Made by a program: the position numbers and the translations under genes. DNA of 64,000 nt from Allobaculum sp. Allo2 (GTDB lineage: Bacteria; Bacillota_I; Bacilli_A; Erysipelotrichales; Erysipelotrichaceae), in assembly GCF_022701175.1 (NCBI RefSeq), contig NZ_CP078088.1, positions 124,001-188,000 on the forward strand. Reading direction: 5' to 3'. Each line of letters starts with the position of its first letter. Positions within the stretch are counted from its first letter, which is position 1. Under the pieces are notes generated by a model. It ran no database searches, was not told the origin of the DNA, and worked only from the letters and a program-made list of their open reading frames with translations. Below are positions 12,564 through 54,775 of this stretch, piece after piece.

Positions 12564-12571
12564 ACAGTCTC

Positions 12572-12577
12572 AGTATA
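12572..12577 (-). promoter_or_regulatory. ispD -10 element giving a leaderless or near-leaderless start
   Basis: TATACT on the minus strand ends eight bases before the ispD ATG (12563). Transcription would start at or just before the ATG, and no Shine-Dalgarno sequence is visible. Confidence 0.5.
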
Positions 12578-16163: not shown

Positions 16164-16203
16164 TTTGGGATGGATCATAGATCTGCGTTAAAGCGATCGA
16201 ACG

Positions 16204-16257
16204 GATCCCTTTGTCTGTTTTGCGGCACGGTTGTGCTGCAAAACAGACAAAGGGATC
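16204..16257 (+). terminator. Near-perfect 25-bp hairpin between ECF gene and MocR regulator
   Basis: A 20-bp perfect inverted repeat (GATCCCTTTGTCTGTTTTGC and its complement) continues through one mismatch into an inner GCAC/GTGC stem with a GGTT loop. TTTT follows on the plus strand only, so it would stop plus-strand transcripts. No plus-strand gene ends upstream, which makes its role unclear. Confidence 0.7.
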
Positions 16258-16395
16258 TTTTACATGCCGTACAGGATCCATGCGTCGACGATTGCTTCTG
16301 TATGCATATTCTCATGGATTGGCCGGTCATGCGTTTAGTATACTCAGATCTGAACTGATCAAAAGGTTCAGAAAAAGAATAAAGGAGCAGACCAG

Positions 16396-21900: not shown

Positions 21901-22211
21901 CTATCGGCCGGAACCGGTACGACCGGAACCGGACGCTTTGTCTGCCGTGAGCGGCGCCTCCTGATGGCCCGGCACAAAAATTTCCGATTCGAGAAACCAT
22001 CGGTTTCTTTCCCAGTACAGCTTGCGCATCTGTCCCTGCATTTTGCAGAGATAGCAGATGCCGCATCCGCCGGCTTTGGAATACATTTCCTGACCGACAG
22101 CACTTTGTCGACTTTATAGCGATGACCGTCCCAGCAGACAAACAGCGGCCGCAATGCGCCGTCCTGAAGAATCAGCGTCACCACATCGACGTAGTATTTG
22201 TAGTACTTCAT
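21901..22211 (-). CDS. Small Cys-containing protein downstream of dinB (frameshifted)
   Basis: About 104 residues starting MKYYKYYVDVVTLILQDG. After one added A near 22068 it reads KAGGCGICYLCKMQGQ and then LYWERNRWFLES. Small proteins of this kind, with an Arg/Lys-Tyr-x-Ile-Asp/Val-Asp core and a GG-G-I-Y-C segment, are often found beside dinB or umuC genes in Clostridia and relatives; their function is not established. The two CxxC-like cysteines may bind metal. Its ATG overlaps the dinB stop by four bases (ATGA), so it is translationally coupled to the polymerase. The C-terminal end is uncertain because the following ~150 bases are low-complexity and open in more than one frame. Confidence 0.6.
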
Positions 22212-23468
22212 ACTTCAATCGGCCCGTCCAGCGGGGCAATGGGATGCACATTATGAAGGAGACCGAGCGGATCAAAGTCCGTCAGCTTCGCATCGACCTG
22301 ACTCGAAGCCATGCGGCAGGCATCGTAGCCGTAGCGAACCCGAATGTCGTAAAGAACCTGTTCCATTTTGCGCTGACGGTCGATCTGTTCCAGATCCATG
22401 AACAGGTCGCCCTGATCAAACCCGGCATCCTGACACAGACCGCTTACCGAAATGCCGACCGACCGCAGACAGATTTCTTCCAGTTTCAAAGACGCCGTCA
22501 GCTGCATGGCCGCCTCGAGAATGTCGCTGGCCAGATCCGTCAGGCGTACGAGCTTTTTCTGACAGCCTTTCGTTTTCAGTTCCGTGGAACGAAGAGAAAT
22601 GCTGATGCGATTGCATTTCATGTGATCGTTGCGCAGTCTGGCCGCGATGGATTCGCTCAGAACCCGGAACACTTCCTGCAGCTGCGCTATGGATGTAATG
22701 TCATGAACCACCGTCTTGGAATTGCCGACCGACTTGACCGGCCGCTTGTAGCCGTTCAGATGCACTTCGCTCTGATCGAACCCGTTGGCATAGTTCCAGA
22801 GCAGACCGCCCATTACGCCAAATCGGCGAGTGAGCCGCTCGGGAGACGCCTTGGCCAGATCGCCGATGGTAAAGATGCGCATCTCGTTCAGCTTTTTGCG
22901 TGTGCGCGATCCGACCATGAGCAGATCTTCCGCCGGAAGCGGCCATATGAATTCCTTAAAATCGTCTTCCGTAACGACCACAAACCCCTTGTGCTTGAGC
23001 AGGTCGCTGGCCAGTTTGGCGAAAATCTTGTTGAAGGAAACGCCCATGCTGACGGTAATGCCGTACGTCTCAAAGACCTCATCCTGAATCCGTCGTGCCA
23101 GATCGATGCCGTCTCCAAAAGACGCTGCGAATGCGTCAGATCGATCCAGGCCTCGTCCAGACCGAAGGACTCCACCCGGTCCGTATATCTACGGTAAATA
23201 TCTTTAATCTTCTCCGTATAGTAAATATATGCGTCATAGTCTGGATGAATAATCAGCAGATCCGGACACTTCCGTCTGGCTTCCCGCAGAGATTCCCCGT
23301 CCTGATGCCTTTGGCCTTGGCCAGATCGTTTTTGGCCAGGATGATCCCGTTTCGTTTTTCCTCGCTGCCTCCCACAGCCATCGGTACGTTGCGCAGTTGA
23401 GGGCGAAGCATTTCTTCAATCTGGGCATAGCAGTGATTTATATCGCTGTGAACAATGACTCGTTTCAT
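22208..23468 (-). CDS. dinB: DNA polymerase IV, Y family (frameshifted)
   Basis: About 420 residues of a translesion polymerase. Visible: VIVHSDINHCYAQIE (first catalytic Asp), LDEAWIDLT with the DEAW/DE catalytic pair, GVSFNKIFAKLASD and the helix-hairpin-helix FTIGDLAKASPERLTRRFG, then a little-finger domain. The frame changes near 23290 and near 23075 and the pieces join into continuous polymerase. It is in an operon with a small Cys protein and divergent from an S24 LexA-like regulator, as expected for an SOS-type module. The ATG follows a TATACT box by exactly six bases with no ribosome binding site, so the mRNA is probably leaderless. Confidence 0.92.
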
Positions 23469-23600
23469 AGGCTCAGTATAGAAATAAACAGGCATCTTTT
23501 CAACTTGCTTACGCACTTTTTGCGCTTTTACGCACCATGAAACTTAGAAATATATTTCACCTTTGCGCCTATCTTGCGCGAACAATGCTATACTATAGAC
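23469..23600. promoter_or_regulatory. Divergent dinB / S24-regulator control region with repeated motifs
   Basis: For dinB (minus strand) TTGAAA at 23503-23498 and TATACT at 23480-23475 are spaced 17 bases apart. For the regulator (plus strand) TATACT is at 23589-23594, preceded by TGC as an extended -10. Between them TTACGCAC occurs at 23509-23516 and 23528-23535 and TTGCGC occurs three times (23520, 23563, 23574). These repeats are candidate operators of the regulator. Confidence 0.65.
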
Positions 23601-24203
23601 ATGAAACCGAATATTCCACAGATCCTTACTGAATTTAAAAACCAGAACAATGTAACAAATGACTATATTGCCGACTACTGCGGCGTAACCCGCTCCACCG
23701 TTTCCCGCTGGTGCAGCGGAAAGATCCGGAAAATTACGCCCGAAGCGCTCGAGAAGCTGAGCGAGATGCTTCACATTGATTTTGACGAGATGACAAGCGT
23801 AGCCCGCTATGCGTATACGCGCCCGATTCTTGGCGAGGTCAAAGCCGGCTACGGGCTTCTGGCCGATGAAAATATTGTCGATTACGTCAAAGTTTCAGAA
23901 GAGGATTACAATCGCGGCGACTATTTTCTGCGGGTTCGCGGCGATTCCATGAAAGGCGCTCACATTCATGAGGGCGACCTTCTTTACATCCGCAAATGCG
24001 TTGACCTTCCGTCGGGGGCAATCGGCGTTTTTCTGATCGGAGAGGAGGAAGTAACGGTTAAGAAGCTGATCAAGAAAAACAACTACTGGATTCTCCAGCC
24101 CGCCAACGACGAAGTTGAACCCCGTGTCTATTCCATGCAGGAAGTCATGGATATTCCCGTTCGAATTGTCGGACAGGCTCTTTACTCCAGAACTGAGCTT
24201 TAG
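23601..24203 (+). CDS. LexA-like XRE/S24 autoprotease regulator
   Basis: A 200-residue protein with an XRE-type helix-turn-helix (DYIADYCGVTRSTVSRWCSGK, split DYIADYCGVTRSTVSR and WCSGK) and a C-terminal S24 peptidase domain. Catalytic Ser is in VRGDSMKG and Lys in VTVKKL; a likely Ala-Gly self-cleavage site lies in EVKAGYG. This architecture is typical of phage-type or LexA-like repressors that self-cleave on RecA filaments. It probably represses the divergent dinB operon and itself. I chose the ATG at 23601 although it has no ribosome site, because the TATACT box ends six bases upstream, matching a leaderless mRNA. No frameshift. Confidence 0.88.
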   Translation: MKPNIPQILTEFKNQNNVTNDYIADYCGVTRSTVSRWCSGKIRKITPEALEKLSEMLHIDFDEMTSVARYAYTRPILGEVKAGYGLLADENIVDYVKVSEEDYNRGDYFLRVRGDSMKGAHIHEGDLLYIRKCVDLPSGAIGVFLIGEEEVTVKKLIKKNNYWILQPANDEVEPRVYSMQEVMDIPVRIVGQALYSRTEL

Positions 24204-24740: not shown

Positions 24741-27700
24741 ATGAAAGTAATTAAGAGAAGCGGCGAAGAAGTCATCTTCAACGTTTCGAAAATCGAAAAC
24801 GCCATCCGCAAAGCCAACAAAGCAACGACTCACGGACAGATGACCGAAGAAGAAATTCTTGAGGTCAGCGCTCTGGTTGCTGAAAAGTGTGAGAATCTCC
24901 ACCGCGCTGCCGGCGTGGAGGAAATCCAGGACATGGTTGAAGCCGCTCTGATGAGCCATGGTTTCTACGCCGTTGCCAAGAACTACATCACTTACCGCTA
25001 CGAGCGTGCTCTCGTACGCAAAACCAACTCGACCGACCAGCAGATCATGTCTCTGCTGGAGAGAAATAACGAAGAAGTAAAACAGGAAAATTCAAACAGT
25101 GCGATGCGTTTCTGATTGAAAAGATCAGACATCACAAAAAGACGTTCGAACAGATACATTTCGAACATTGTGATGAACTCCGTTTTTGAAGAATTTCTGC
25201 CGGCCCCAACAGCCCGCAGAAATTCTCTTTAAGTCTCCGGCATGCGCCGGATTTCAAAAGGCCAGGAAGTGAACAGATCCTGCGCCGCCAGGTTTGAAAT
25301 CCGGGGTATGAAGCCCGGTAAAGTCGGCCGACAGCTGCCGCAGCCTGCTTTTGCAGAGCGAAACCTCCGCCTCGCGGAGCGCAGCCCATAGGCCGGAAGT
25401 CCATAAAACAGATATGGTCAGAATGCACCAGACGGTGCTGACGAATTTGCGAATGTACGGATCTACAGTTTTCCGGCGCAGAAATGCGCAGGCGCGATAC
25501 GCGCGCCGGTGCGGACAAGTAAGAATTGTTTGTATGAACGTCCGTATCAGACGAAGCCTCAATGGAGGCGGCGGGTCTGATCGAGCCGGCAGGTCCATAG
25601 CAAAAACCTAAGTCTGTATGCACGGATAGAAAACGGGGAACACAGAAAAGCAGCAGCCTCCGGGAGGCGGGCGAAGAACAATAAGCCGCCAAACTGCTGC
25701 CCAAAAGCCGAGGCCGCAGCGATGACCTCTTCTGTAATGGAAGAGCGAGCGATGACCTCAAGTCGATGCACCTTCTTCCGACTTTTCAAGCCGGATTTCA
25801 AAACATTTTATTCAGACTCGCTTTCCGGGCGGCGGTTTTTCCAGAGAGAAAAGCCGAAACCGAAGGAAAACGGAACGCATCGATGGAGCGCCGTGTGCGG
25901 TGAAAGCCGCATGCACGGTGTGAAGCGGGGAAAAGGCAGAGATCGCATCAAAGCCTTACCTATCGCTATAAAACCCATTAGTAAACTCTGTTCAGCGTGA
26001 CTATATGGCCGGTGAAGTATCCAAGGATATCACTCGCCGCTTCCTGCTCCCCCACGACATCATGGAAGCCCACGACAATGGACTGATTCATTTCCATGAT
26101 TCCGACTACTTTGCCCAGCACATGCACAACTGCTGCCTGGTCAACCTGGAGGACATGCTTCAGAACGGAACCGTTATTTCCGAAACCATGATCGAAAAAC
26201 CGCACAGCTTCTCCACCGCGTGCAACATTGCAACACAGATCATCGCGCAGGTGGCCAGCTCCCAGTACGGCGGTCAGTCGATCACCCTCTCTCACCTGGC
26301 TCCGTTCGTAGCCGTTTCCCGTGCGAAAGCCCGTGCGGAAGTACGCGACGAACTGAACGCCATGAACCTGCCTTCGGATGACGAAACCGTAAACGAAATC
26401 GCAGAAATGCGCGTCCAGAAGGAAATCGAAAAGGGCGTACAGACCATCCAGTATCAGGTCATCACCCTGATGACTACAAATGGTCAGGCTCCGTTCATCA
26501 CCGTCTTCATGTACCTCAATGAAGTGGAAGATCCGCAGACCAAAGCGGACCTGGCTTCCATCATCGAAGCGGTTCTCAAGCAGAGAATTCTCGGTGTTAA
26601 AAACGAAACCGGCCACTACATCACTCCGGCTTTCCCGAAACTGATCTACGTTCTCGAAGAAGACAACATCCATCCGGACAGCAAGTACTACTACCTGACG
26701 CAGCTCGCCGCTAAATGCACCGCGAAACGCATGGTACCGGACTACATCTCCGAAAAGATGATGCTCAAGCTCAAAATCGACGTAAACGGCGAAGGCCACT
26801 GCTACCCGGCTATGGGATGCCGTTCCTTCCTTACACCGTATGTAAACGAAGAAGGCAAACCGCAGTACTACGGCCGTTTCAACCAGGGCGTTGTCACCAT
26901 CAACCTCGTTGACGTTGCCTGCTCTTCCAAAGGCGACTACGAAGAATTCTGGCGCATCTTTGACGAACGTCTCGATCTCTGCTTCCGCGCCCTGATGATC
27001 CGTCACAACCGTCTGCTCGATACGCCAAGCGACGTGGCTCCGATCCTCTGGCAGAACGGCGCGCTGGCCCGTCTGAAAAAGGCGAGACCATCAATAAGCT
27101 GCTCTTCGGCGGCTACTCCACGATCTCCCTTGGCTATGCCGGACTTTCCGAAGCCGTATGGTACATGACCGGCGTTTCCCACACCGATCCAGTCGGCACA
27201 AAATTCGGCAAGCGCATCATGGAATACCTCAATGCTGCCTGCGCGAAATGGAGAGCTGAAACCAACATCGACTTCTCTCTGTACGGCACCCCGATGGAAT
27301 CGACGACCTACCGCTTCGCCAAGAAGCTGCAGGACCGTTTCGGCATCATCCCGCACGTAACCGACAAGAGCTACATCACCAACTCCTATCACGTTCACGT
27401 TACCGAACCGATCGATGCCTTCGACAAGCTGACCTTCGAGGCGCAGTTCCAGAAACTGTCTCCAGGCGGAGCCATCTCCTACGTCGAAGTACCGAACATG
27501 CAGAACAACCTGCAGGCGGTTATGGCGCTCATCCAGCATATTTATGACAACATCATGTATGCCGAGCTCAACACCAAATCCGACTACTGCCAGGAATGCG
27601 GCTATTCCGGCGAAATCGAAATCGTTGAGGACGAAAGCCACAAGCTGATCTGGAAGTGCCCGAACTGCGGCAATACCGATCAGTCCAAGATGAACGTTGC

Positions 27701-33555: not shown

Positions 33556-33753
33556 TTGCTTTCCAGTTTCTGCTTTCAGAAATGGATTTCTTGTTCTCCA
33601 TTTCGATTTTCGCGATTCCTTCGGGGATCGTTTTTCTTCTGGCTTCTTTGTACGCTTTCCTGACGAAGCCGGAAGGAATTGCCTTCTGGTCTGCCTCAGG
33701 AATTGACAGACTCGGCTGTGTGTTTTAGAAAAAGCTTGTACCATTTCAACAAA

Positions 33754-33838
33754 ACAGCAGGGGAGCTCAAAAGAGCTGAGAGGAAGTCCGGCTTCGACCC
33801 TGGAACCTGATGCGGATTATGCCGCCGTAGGAAGCTGA
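33754..33838 (+). promoter_or_regulatory. TPP riboswitch (THI element) upstream of thiW
   Basis: All conserved blocks are present: GGGGAGCT, GCTGAGAGG, ACCCTGGAACCTGATGCGG and ATGCCGCCGTAGGAAG. P1 is formed by CAGC (33755-33758) and GCTG (33834-33837). It binds thiamine pyrophosphate and lowers downstream expression. Confidence 0.95.
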
Positions 33839-33858
33839 CCAGTCGACCGTTGACTTTT

Positions 33859-34571: not shown

Positions 34572-34682
34572 CGAAAATCGGCGTACTTCCGTGCTTTCGA
34601 ACGGAAATTAAAACGACCGGTCACCGTTTCTTGACGGCTTAGAAAACAGGTTTTAGAAAGGAATTAATACCCGTTCCATCAA

Positions 34683-34767
34683 ACAGCAGGGGAGCTTTGA
34701 AAAAGCTGAGAGGAAGTTTGGCTTCGACCCTGGAACCTGATGCGGATTATGCCGCCGTAGGAAGCTG
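34683..34767 (+). promoter_or_regulatory. TPP riboswitch upstream of thiM
   Basis: Almost the same sequence as the thiW riboswitch, with differences mostly in the P3 loop (GCTTTGAAAAAGC) and P3a. All core blocks are intact. P1 is CAGC (34684-34687) with GCTG (34764-34767). Confidence 0.95.
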
Positions 34768-34781
34768 ATCTATCGACTTTT

Positions 34782-53668: not shown

Positions 53669-53680
53669 TATACTGAAGCC
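53669..53680 (+). promoter_or_regulatory. tetR -10 element with leaderless start
   Basis: TATACT at 53669-53674 followed by six bases and then the ATG at 53681, the same geometry as at dinB and the S24 regulator gene. No ribosome site fits between. Confidence 0.6.
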
Positions 53681-54334
53681 ATGTCAGGAAAAGCCGAACA
53701 GAATAAACTTCATAAAAAAACAGCCTGCTCAGCGCTGCGCTTGCCCTTCTTTCCAGCCGGGATCTGGCGGAAGTCTCCATTTCGGACATTACCAACCGGG
53801 CCGGCGTAGCGAAAGGCACTTTCTATTCTTTTTCAGGGATAAGGAAGAGATCCGGGACTATCTGGTCGACCGGGAATCCCAGCGCATTGTCCGTAATGCG
53901 CAGGACCAGCTCGACGAGGAAGATATCCGAAACTTTGACGATGCGGTCATTTTCATGATTTCCCGCATTCTTCAGCAGCTCTCCGACAATCCCCTGCTTC
54001 TGCGTCTGATCCGCCGCAGCCTTTCCATGGGCGTCTTCCATAAGGAACTGCAGAGCACCCTGGGTCAGGGCGGTCTCGATCTGGCGAATCGCTTTGAAGC
54101 CAAGGCCCGCGAATGCGGCGTGAAATTTGAAAATGCCCAGCTCGTCTATTTCATGATTCTCGAACTGACCGGATCCGTCTGTTATTCCTCGATTGTGTAC
54201 GGCATCCCCTGTTCGATTGAAGAACTCAAACCCGTTCTGTTCGATACCATCCGCGCCATTCTGGCTTCGGCCAAAGAACCCGCAGGAGGACCCCCTGCAT
54301 TAGTACCTGCATTAATACCTGCATTAACGATTGA
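53681..54334 (+). CDS. TetR/AcrR family regulator of the MMPL operon (frameshifted)
   Basis: An N-terminal TetR helix-turn-helix is recovered after adding an A near 53722 and a T near 53830: SISDITNRAGVAKGTFYSFF is the classic TetR motif. The C-terminal ligand domain has helices such as LQQLSDNPLLLRLIRR. It is divergent from the MMPL gene with two matching palindromes between, so it most likely represses both. One added C near 54295 would end the protein at 54334 after a short repeat CISTCINTCIND; without it the frame stays open into the terminator, which is less plausible. The ligand is unknown. Confidence 0.85.
54297..54330. repeat. Three tandem 12-bp repeats at the end of tetR
   Basis: CTGCATTAGTAC, CTGCATTAATAC and CTGCATTAACGA are consecutive. 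In the corrected frame they encode Cys-Ile-x-Thr/Asn units. Confidence 0.75.
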
Positions 54335-54366
54335 AAATACCCGTACCCCGTGTGCTGAATCCATAC

Positions 54367-54413
54367 AAAAGGAGATCCGTTCCAGCAAATTGCTGAAAAT
54401 GGATCTCCTTTTT
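54367..54413 (+). terminator. Terminator of tetR
   Basis: AAAAGGAGATCC and GGATCTCCTTTTT arms around a 22-base loop. Confidence 0.88.
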
Positions 54414-54775
54414 CCTTTCTGTTCCTGGTTATTCCACCGTTTTCCGGTGAATCGCGTCTCTCCTTCTCTTCGCTCATTGGAAAGAGTAAACGCAGCGAAC
54501 AAGAGTTCAGCCAGCGCATTTTCGCGTTTCCTTCACCAGTCCCCGCTCTCTTATTTTTGTTTTCTCCTTCAATCAAGGAGAATGAGGGATTTTTCCGAAA
54601 TGGCGTTTTCTGCAATCGAGGGGTCAGGCGGTTCTTAATTCTGAAACCAGTTTCCCGTAATCCCGTTTCCTTCGAAAAGGGATCCTCGATCGCTGGCTAT
54701 AGCTGTCACCTTCGTCTTTATGGATCGTTCTGCGAACCGCATCCTGTATTTTTCCTGATCGATTCCTTTACCTGT
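54414..54775. other. Intergenic region between tetR and ybaK-like gene
   Basis: About 360 bases of pyrimidine-rich sequence between two convergent genes. No gene or RNA family is recognised. The frames running through it are extensions of the tetR frame past the terminator. Confidence 0.35.

Follow-up and report, generated by a model that had tools for sequence, protein, structure and literature searches.

This study concerns promoters of Allobaculum and related Erysipelotrichaceae in which exactly six bases separate the -10 box from the ATG start codon. Relatives retain this spacing but not the DNA around it, which argues that the layout is real. Judged from the sequence, such promoters very probably give mRNA that starts on the A of the ATG and is therefore leaderless. 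The layout is not a rule in the genomes sampled; it occurs at approximately 2-4% of genes, many of them housekeeping genes.

Results

The window analysed was a 64-kb stretch of DNA, positions 124001-188000 of a 2.73-Mb contig of Allobaculum (genome G000). A pattern search of the window found TATACTNNNNNNATG at 23480-23466 (-), 23589-23603 (+) and 53669-53683 (+), so that the TATACT-N6-ATG arrangement (N6 being six bases) originally predicted at dinB, the S24 gene and tetR was indeed present. A fourth match, absent from the list of the original prediction, was located at 16342-16328 (-). These four matches compare with 0.05 expected (sd 0.22) from dinucleotide shuffles of the window, and none of 100 shuffles reached a count of four. 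In the whole genome, 19 matches to the strict pattern were counted vs 6 for the reversed pattern; thus, the match density of the window is well above the genome average.

Three of the four window matches are gene starts, namely those of the S24/HTH repressor, dinB and tetR (Table 1). The fourth was rejected as a gene start, because it opens only a 51-codon frame and a likely transporter gene starts approximately 200 bp further on. Within this short frame, upstream of the transporter gene, a very stable hairpin with a stem of approximately 20 bp was noted at 16170-16260 (-), and the 181-nt stretch that holds it folds at -66.7 kcal/mol (z -6.6). Elsewhere in the window, group II intron RNA domains were found at 25173-25407 and 25886-25969 (+) (Rfam RF02004, RF00029), and two TPP riboswitches approximately 1 kb apart at 33749-33850 and 34678-34780 (+) (Rfam RF00059).

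Table 1. Positions of the promoters and genes discussed, numbered from the first base of the window
Feature	Position	Strand	Basis or remark
ispD -10 box, TATACT followed by eight bases (N8)	12564-12577	-	pattern search
Fourth TATACT-N6-ATG match	16328-16342	-	51-codon frame; probably chance or a leader ORF
dinB (Y-family DNA polymerase), divergent from the S24 gene; frame broken in the assembly	22208-23468	-	G060 homologue
dinB promoter: TTGAAA (23503-23498), 17 bp, TATACT (23480-23475), GAGCCT, ATG (23468-23466)	23469-23503	-	
S24 promoter: TATACT (23589-23594), then ATAGAC	23589-23600	+	N6 spacing exact in the 13 nearest genomes
S24/HTH_3 repressor gene (LexA/HdiR/cI-like), 200 aa, intact	23601-24203	+	Pfam
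tetR promoter: TATACT, then GAAGCC; ATG at 53681	53669-53680	+	G060 homologue L139 has TATACT-GGGTTT-ATG
tetR-family regulator gene; frame broken in the assembly, end approximate	53681-54638	+	G060 homologue

The G000 contig is rich in frameshifts (completeness 58%), and the frames of dinB, tetR and ispD are all broken in the assembly. Given the many frameshifts, the apparent pseudogenes of the window (1-64000) are probably sequencing errors. Gene starts could not be counted cleanly in so frameshifted a contig; for this purpose G060, a genome of the same genus in one contig, and G018 were used. The starts of the three genes were confirmed by intact G060 homologues. The tetR homologue of G060 matched L004 in three segments with 59-80% identity. 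At ispD, the predicted gap of eight bases was recovered as TATACT-N8-ATG at 12577-12561 (-), and the G060 homologue (L152; Pfam IspD, 2.8e-61) has six bases (TATACT-GATGGC-ATG).

The S24 protein contains a Peptidase_S24 domain (PF00717, 8e-24) and, at its N-terminus, an HTH_3 domain (PF01381, 1.5e-10). Its score of 75 bits against TIGR00498 (lexA) is below the cut-off of 111, and the protein is therefore LexA-like and not LexA. The motifs KAGYG, GDSM and TVKKL, candidates for the Ala-Gly cleavage site and the Ser-Lys dyad, were picked out in the protein (P0001) by eye. The TATACT box of its gene is preceded by TGC at 23586-23588, an extended -10 form, and the predicted transcription start is the A of the ATG at 23601. 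No clear -35 element was found for the S24 gene or for tetR. The predicted lack of a Shine-Dalgarno (SD) sequence held at both divergent genes, as the S24 gene is preceded by no SD of at least 4 bases and none can be seen in front of dinB.

Homologues of the S24 protein were gathered from 145 genomes of the family. In each of the 13 nearest genomes (8 genera, 52-100% identity), exactly six bases separate a -10-like hexamer from the ATG. The hexamer itself varies (TATACT, TATAAT, TACAAT, TAAAAT), as do the letters of the spacer, while the spacing is constant; SD matches in this clade are chance matches of at most 4 bases. Most of the more distant homologues in the sample carry a leader with an SD. 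Strong SDs, for example GAGGTGAT and AGGTGA, prevail; a 4-base GGAG is all that a few possess, and one (L035) is near-leaderless with a gap of seven bases. On the protein tree, a single branch (support 97/95) sets the 13 leaderless rows apart, and the layout requires 1 change vs a mean of 9.8 with shuffled labels. The leaderless layout of this gene thus apparently had a single origin, as read from the tree.

The divergent dinB adjoins the S24 gene in several genomes, including SD-led lineages, and its intact G060 homologue contains the Pfam domains IMS (1.6e-42) and IMS_C. Four Allobaculum species keep TATACT-N6-ATG before dinB with different spacers (GAGCCT, GTGATC, GTGCTT, GAAATC). All four have a -35-like hexamer 17 bp upstream, which is TTGAAA in the window and in G060, TTGAAG in L020 and TTGCGA in G136. 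Between the two genes (23500-23585), several TTGCGC/TTACGC half-sites were observed, and similar GCGCAA/ATGCAA motifs occur in relatives. From their sequence, the half-sites are candidate operators of the S24 repressor, which is suggestive but unproven. The repressor looks autoregulated, and it probably controls dinB as well, a guess from the neighbourhood of the two genes.

Comparison of the two Allobaculum genomes extended the observation to other genes. Thirty TATAMT-N6 loci were fetched from G060, of which 20 open a frame of at least 40 aa. The same layout was found at the G000 homologue of 14 of these 20 ORFs, compared with 2 of 12 when a gap of nine bases (N9) was used as a control (Fisher p 0.005); the 14 pairs include one IS66-type transposase gene and one weak match (L146/L008). 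The stretch from -60 to -13, which reaches the edge of the -10 box, was 37-39% identical in 13 pairs; outside the box, these promoters have thus diverged. The identity of 99% at the -10 box is partly built in, since both members were found by pattern. The base at -1, which is free in the search pattern, was C or T in 26 of 26 paired starts; in G060, the background is approximately 70% at SD-led ATGs and 40% at all ATGs. A pyrimidine at -1 followed by a purine at +1 is the usual bacterial transcription start in all species analysed (PMC4782308).

The shared genes encode S24, DinB, TetR, RsmG, RlmA, a HAD hydrolase, a metallophosphoesterase, a laccase-domain protein, an AraC regulator, a NADAR-DarT1 antitoxin and others. 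The antitoxin gene keeps its leaderless layout in both species (L142 in G060, L016 in G000).

Throughout the family, counts at N6 were compared with counts at N9, which has the same codon phase. The 145 genomes together gave 10634 N6 matches vs 7731 N9 matches. N6 exceeded N9 at p<0.01 in 51 genomes, 29 of them after Bonferroni correction, and the reverse was seen in none. The excess is modest for whole genomes of Allobaculum (genus g1; 158 vs 106, p 8e-4; 32 vs 22 in G060 alone) and strongest in genus g18 (262 vs 71). In g18, 28 of 30 inspected N6 matches open an ORF of at least 80 aa (background 27%), and the base at -1 is C or T in 69 of 75 matches (p 2e-11 vs 57% at SD-led starts). Its distribution is mosaic, being clear in g18, g55, g45 and g3 and absent in g52, g43, g10 and g50. 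In genome G003, the same TATACTATATGCATG was observed on many contigs, often near their ends (C10, C27, C29, C55, C67, C79, C87, C88, C130, C133), and is probably a mobile element in many copies, by which the count of that genome is inflated.

These counts bear on a first alternative, that TATACT-N6-ATG is a coincidence in AT-rich upstream regions. The 16328 match and several genome matches open no genes, and single matches may be chance. As a general account, however, chance is refuted and hardly credible in view of the shuffled-window expectation, the exact spacing at 13 of 13 S24 orthologues, the 14 of 20 layouts common to the two species and the one-sided difference between N6 and N9. The original prediction had named the lack of a genome-wide excess over chance as grounds for refutation; an excess was found and speaks in favour of leaderless transcripts.

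Samples of 400 kb were searched for ORFs with a near-consensus box placed exactly six bases ahead. There were 6 such ORFs among 318 in G060 and 15 among 361 in G018, or approximately 2% and 4% of the sampled genes, background included. Histograms of the distance to the ATG show a spike at exactly six; with the loose TANNNT pattern, which was too noisy, no clear spike at six was seen. The spike bears on a second alternative, in which the -10 box is real and leaders are 1-10 nt long, either because the true start codon is further downstream or because transcription begins some bases earlier. Some such leaders are suggested by the eight bases at ispD, the seven at L035 and two shared N9 pairs (L204/L242 and L196/L252). 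As the explanation of the N6 genes, short leaders are nevertheless unlikely, given the sharpness of the spike and the pyrimidine at -1, which fits a pyrimidine-purine start with the A of the ATG as +1. Furthermore, protein alignments between species begin at the N6 ATG in most pairs, and the S24 ATG of G060 directly follows an in-frame stop codon.

A third alternative takes TATACT(GA) as the site recognised by a specific regulator, or by an alternative sigma factor, that governs a stress regulon. TATACT is more frequent than TATAAT at the N6 spacing in Allobaculum (19 vs 8 in G000, 20 vs 12 in G060), and five N6 genes of G060 encode regulators. Genus g18, however, uses TATAAT at the same spacing, and its N6 genes are mostly housekeeping genes (RNase III, CCA-adding enzyme, PriA, MiaA, LigA, MATE, FemAB). 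In addition, the functions in Allobaculum are mixed (rsmG, rlmA, ispD, HAD, laccase-domain), and dinB has an ordinary -35/-10 pair. A dedicated regulator or sigma factor is therefore very unlikely. The stress regulon was rejected on the gene content of the Allobaculum and g18 sets, and the preference for TATACT is not supported as the mark of a separate class, as TATACT is generally not rare and TATAAT is the box used in g18. Likewise, the earlier suggestion of a stress or regulatory gene class was not upheld, as the shared set contains rsmG, rlmA, ispD, the laccase-domain, HAD and NADAR antitoxin genes and the g18 set is mostly housekeeping.

Discussion

The leaderless reading of the original prediction was supported, at the level of sequence, by the N6 spacing across species and genera, the pyrimidine at -1, the absence of SD sequences and the surplus of N6 over N9 throughout the family. 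The most likely mechanism is as follows. In a promoter of the housekeeping (sigma-70/SigA) type, exactly six bases would separate the -10 box from the start codon, RNA polymerase would start at the A of the ATG, and the resulting 5'-terminal AUG would, by analogy with leaderless mRNAs studied elsewhere, be bound by the 70S ribosome or by a 30S subunit loaded with initiator tRNA, without SD pairing; both the start and the translation are deduced. It would be a minority mode in Allobaculum and related Erysipelotrichaceae, serving a few per cent of genes and held by selection at individual genes, among them the S24 repressor and the divergent dinB, probably its target. At N6 genes, an additional upstream promoter may also give a leadered mRNA.

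It is conceivable, though rather doubtful, that the leaderless layout of the S24 gene, seen across eight genera and shared by its dinB partner in Allobaculum, is itself a control device, with stress-altered leaderless initiation partly setting the damage response at translation. If so, synthesis of the repressor and of the polymerase would depend on a leaderless route whose efficiency changes under stress.

With these observations, a family of gut bacteria would join the Gram-positives that apparently have a few per cent of leaderless genes. Starts of this kind may be misplaced by gene callers that depend on SD scores. Moreover, the mosaic distribution and the single-origin switch of the S24 gene make the family a natural series for the gain and loss of leaderless starts at orthologous genes.

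Streptococci, Lactococcus and Mycoplasma are already known to have leaderless genes. In Streptococcus pyogenes, S. agalactiae and S. pneumoniae, transcription-start mapping found 8.6-9% of mRNAs to be leaderless, and the state is kept between orthologues, 54 being common to two species and 39 to three (PMC6431027). Allobaculum resembles these bacteria in being a low-GC Gram-positive with a leaderless minority whose state is kept between orthologues; the streptococcal values were measured by dRNA-seq, whereas those of Allobaculum, in another family, are deduced from a strict sequence motif and amount to approximately 2-4%.

Zheng et al. (2011) described TA-led leaderless genes in bacteria, with TANNNT at about -12 (PMC3160421). 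The Allobaculum N6 genes bear the same signature: the -10 box begins, from its first T, approximately 12 bp before the start codon, an SD is absent in the S24 clade, and the pyrimidine-purine step agrees with the A of the ATG as +1. Among Firmicutes, that study lists leaderless genes in Lactobacillales and Mycoplasma and makes no mention of Erysipelotrich- or Erysipelothrix (PMC3160421). Erysipelotrichia have a strong SD consensus (PMC10783764), and no description of leaderless genes in Erysipelotrichaceae was found in the literature.

The textbook E. coli cases, as cited in PMC3848588, are the lambda cI repressor and the tetR of Tn1721. The S24 and tetR genes of Allobaculum are comparable, as the S24-family protein is cI-like, the other is a TetR-family repressor, and the mRNAs would likewise begin at the AUG; the E. 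coli examples are repressors of mobile elements, whereas the Allobaculum loci have no established phage or transposon context. According to the account in PMC8565304, HdiR of Lactococcus lactis is a LexA-like protein with HTH and S24 domains that controls itself and the Y-family polymerase gene umuC. The S24 gene and its divergent dinB recall this arrangement. The leaderless genes of Allobaculum are thus a minority feature of a type already known in other bacteria.
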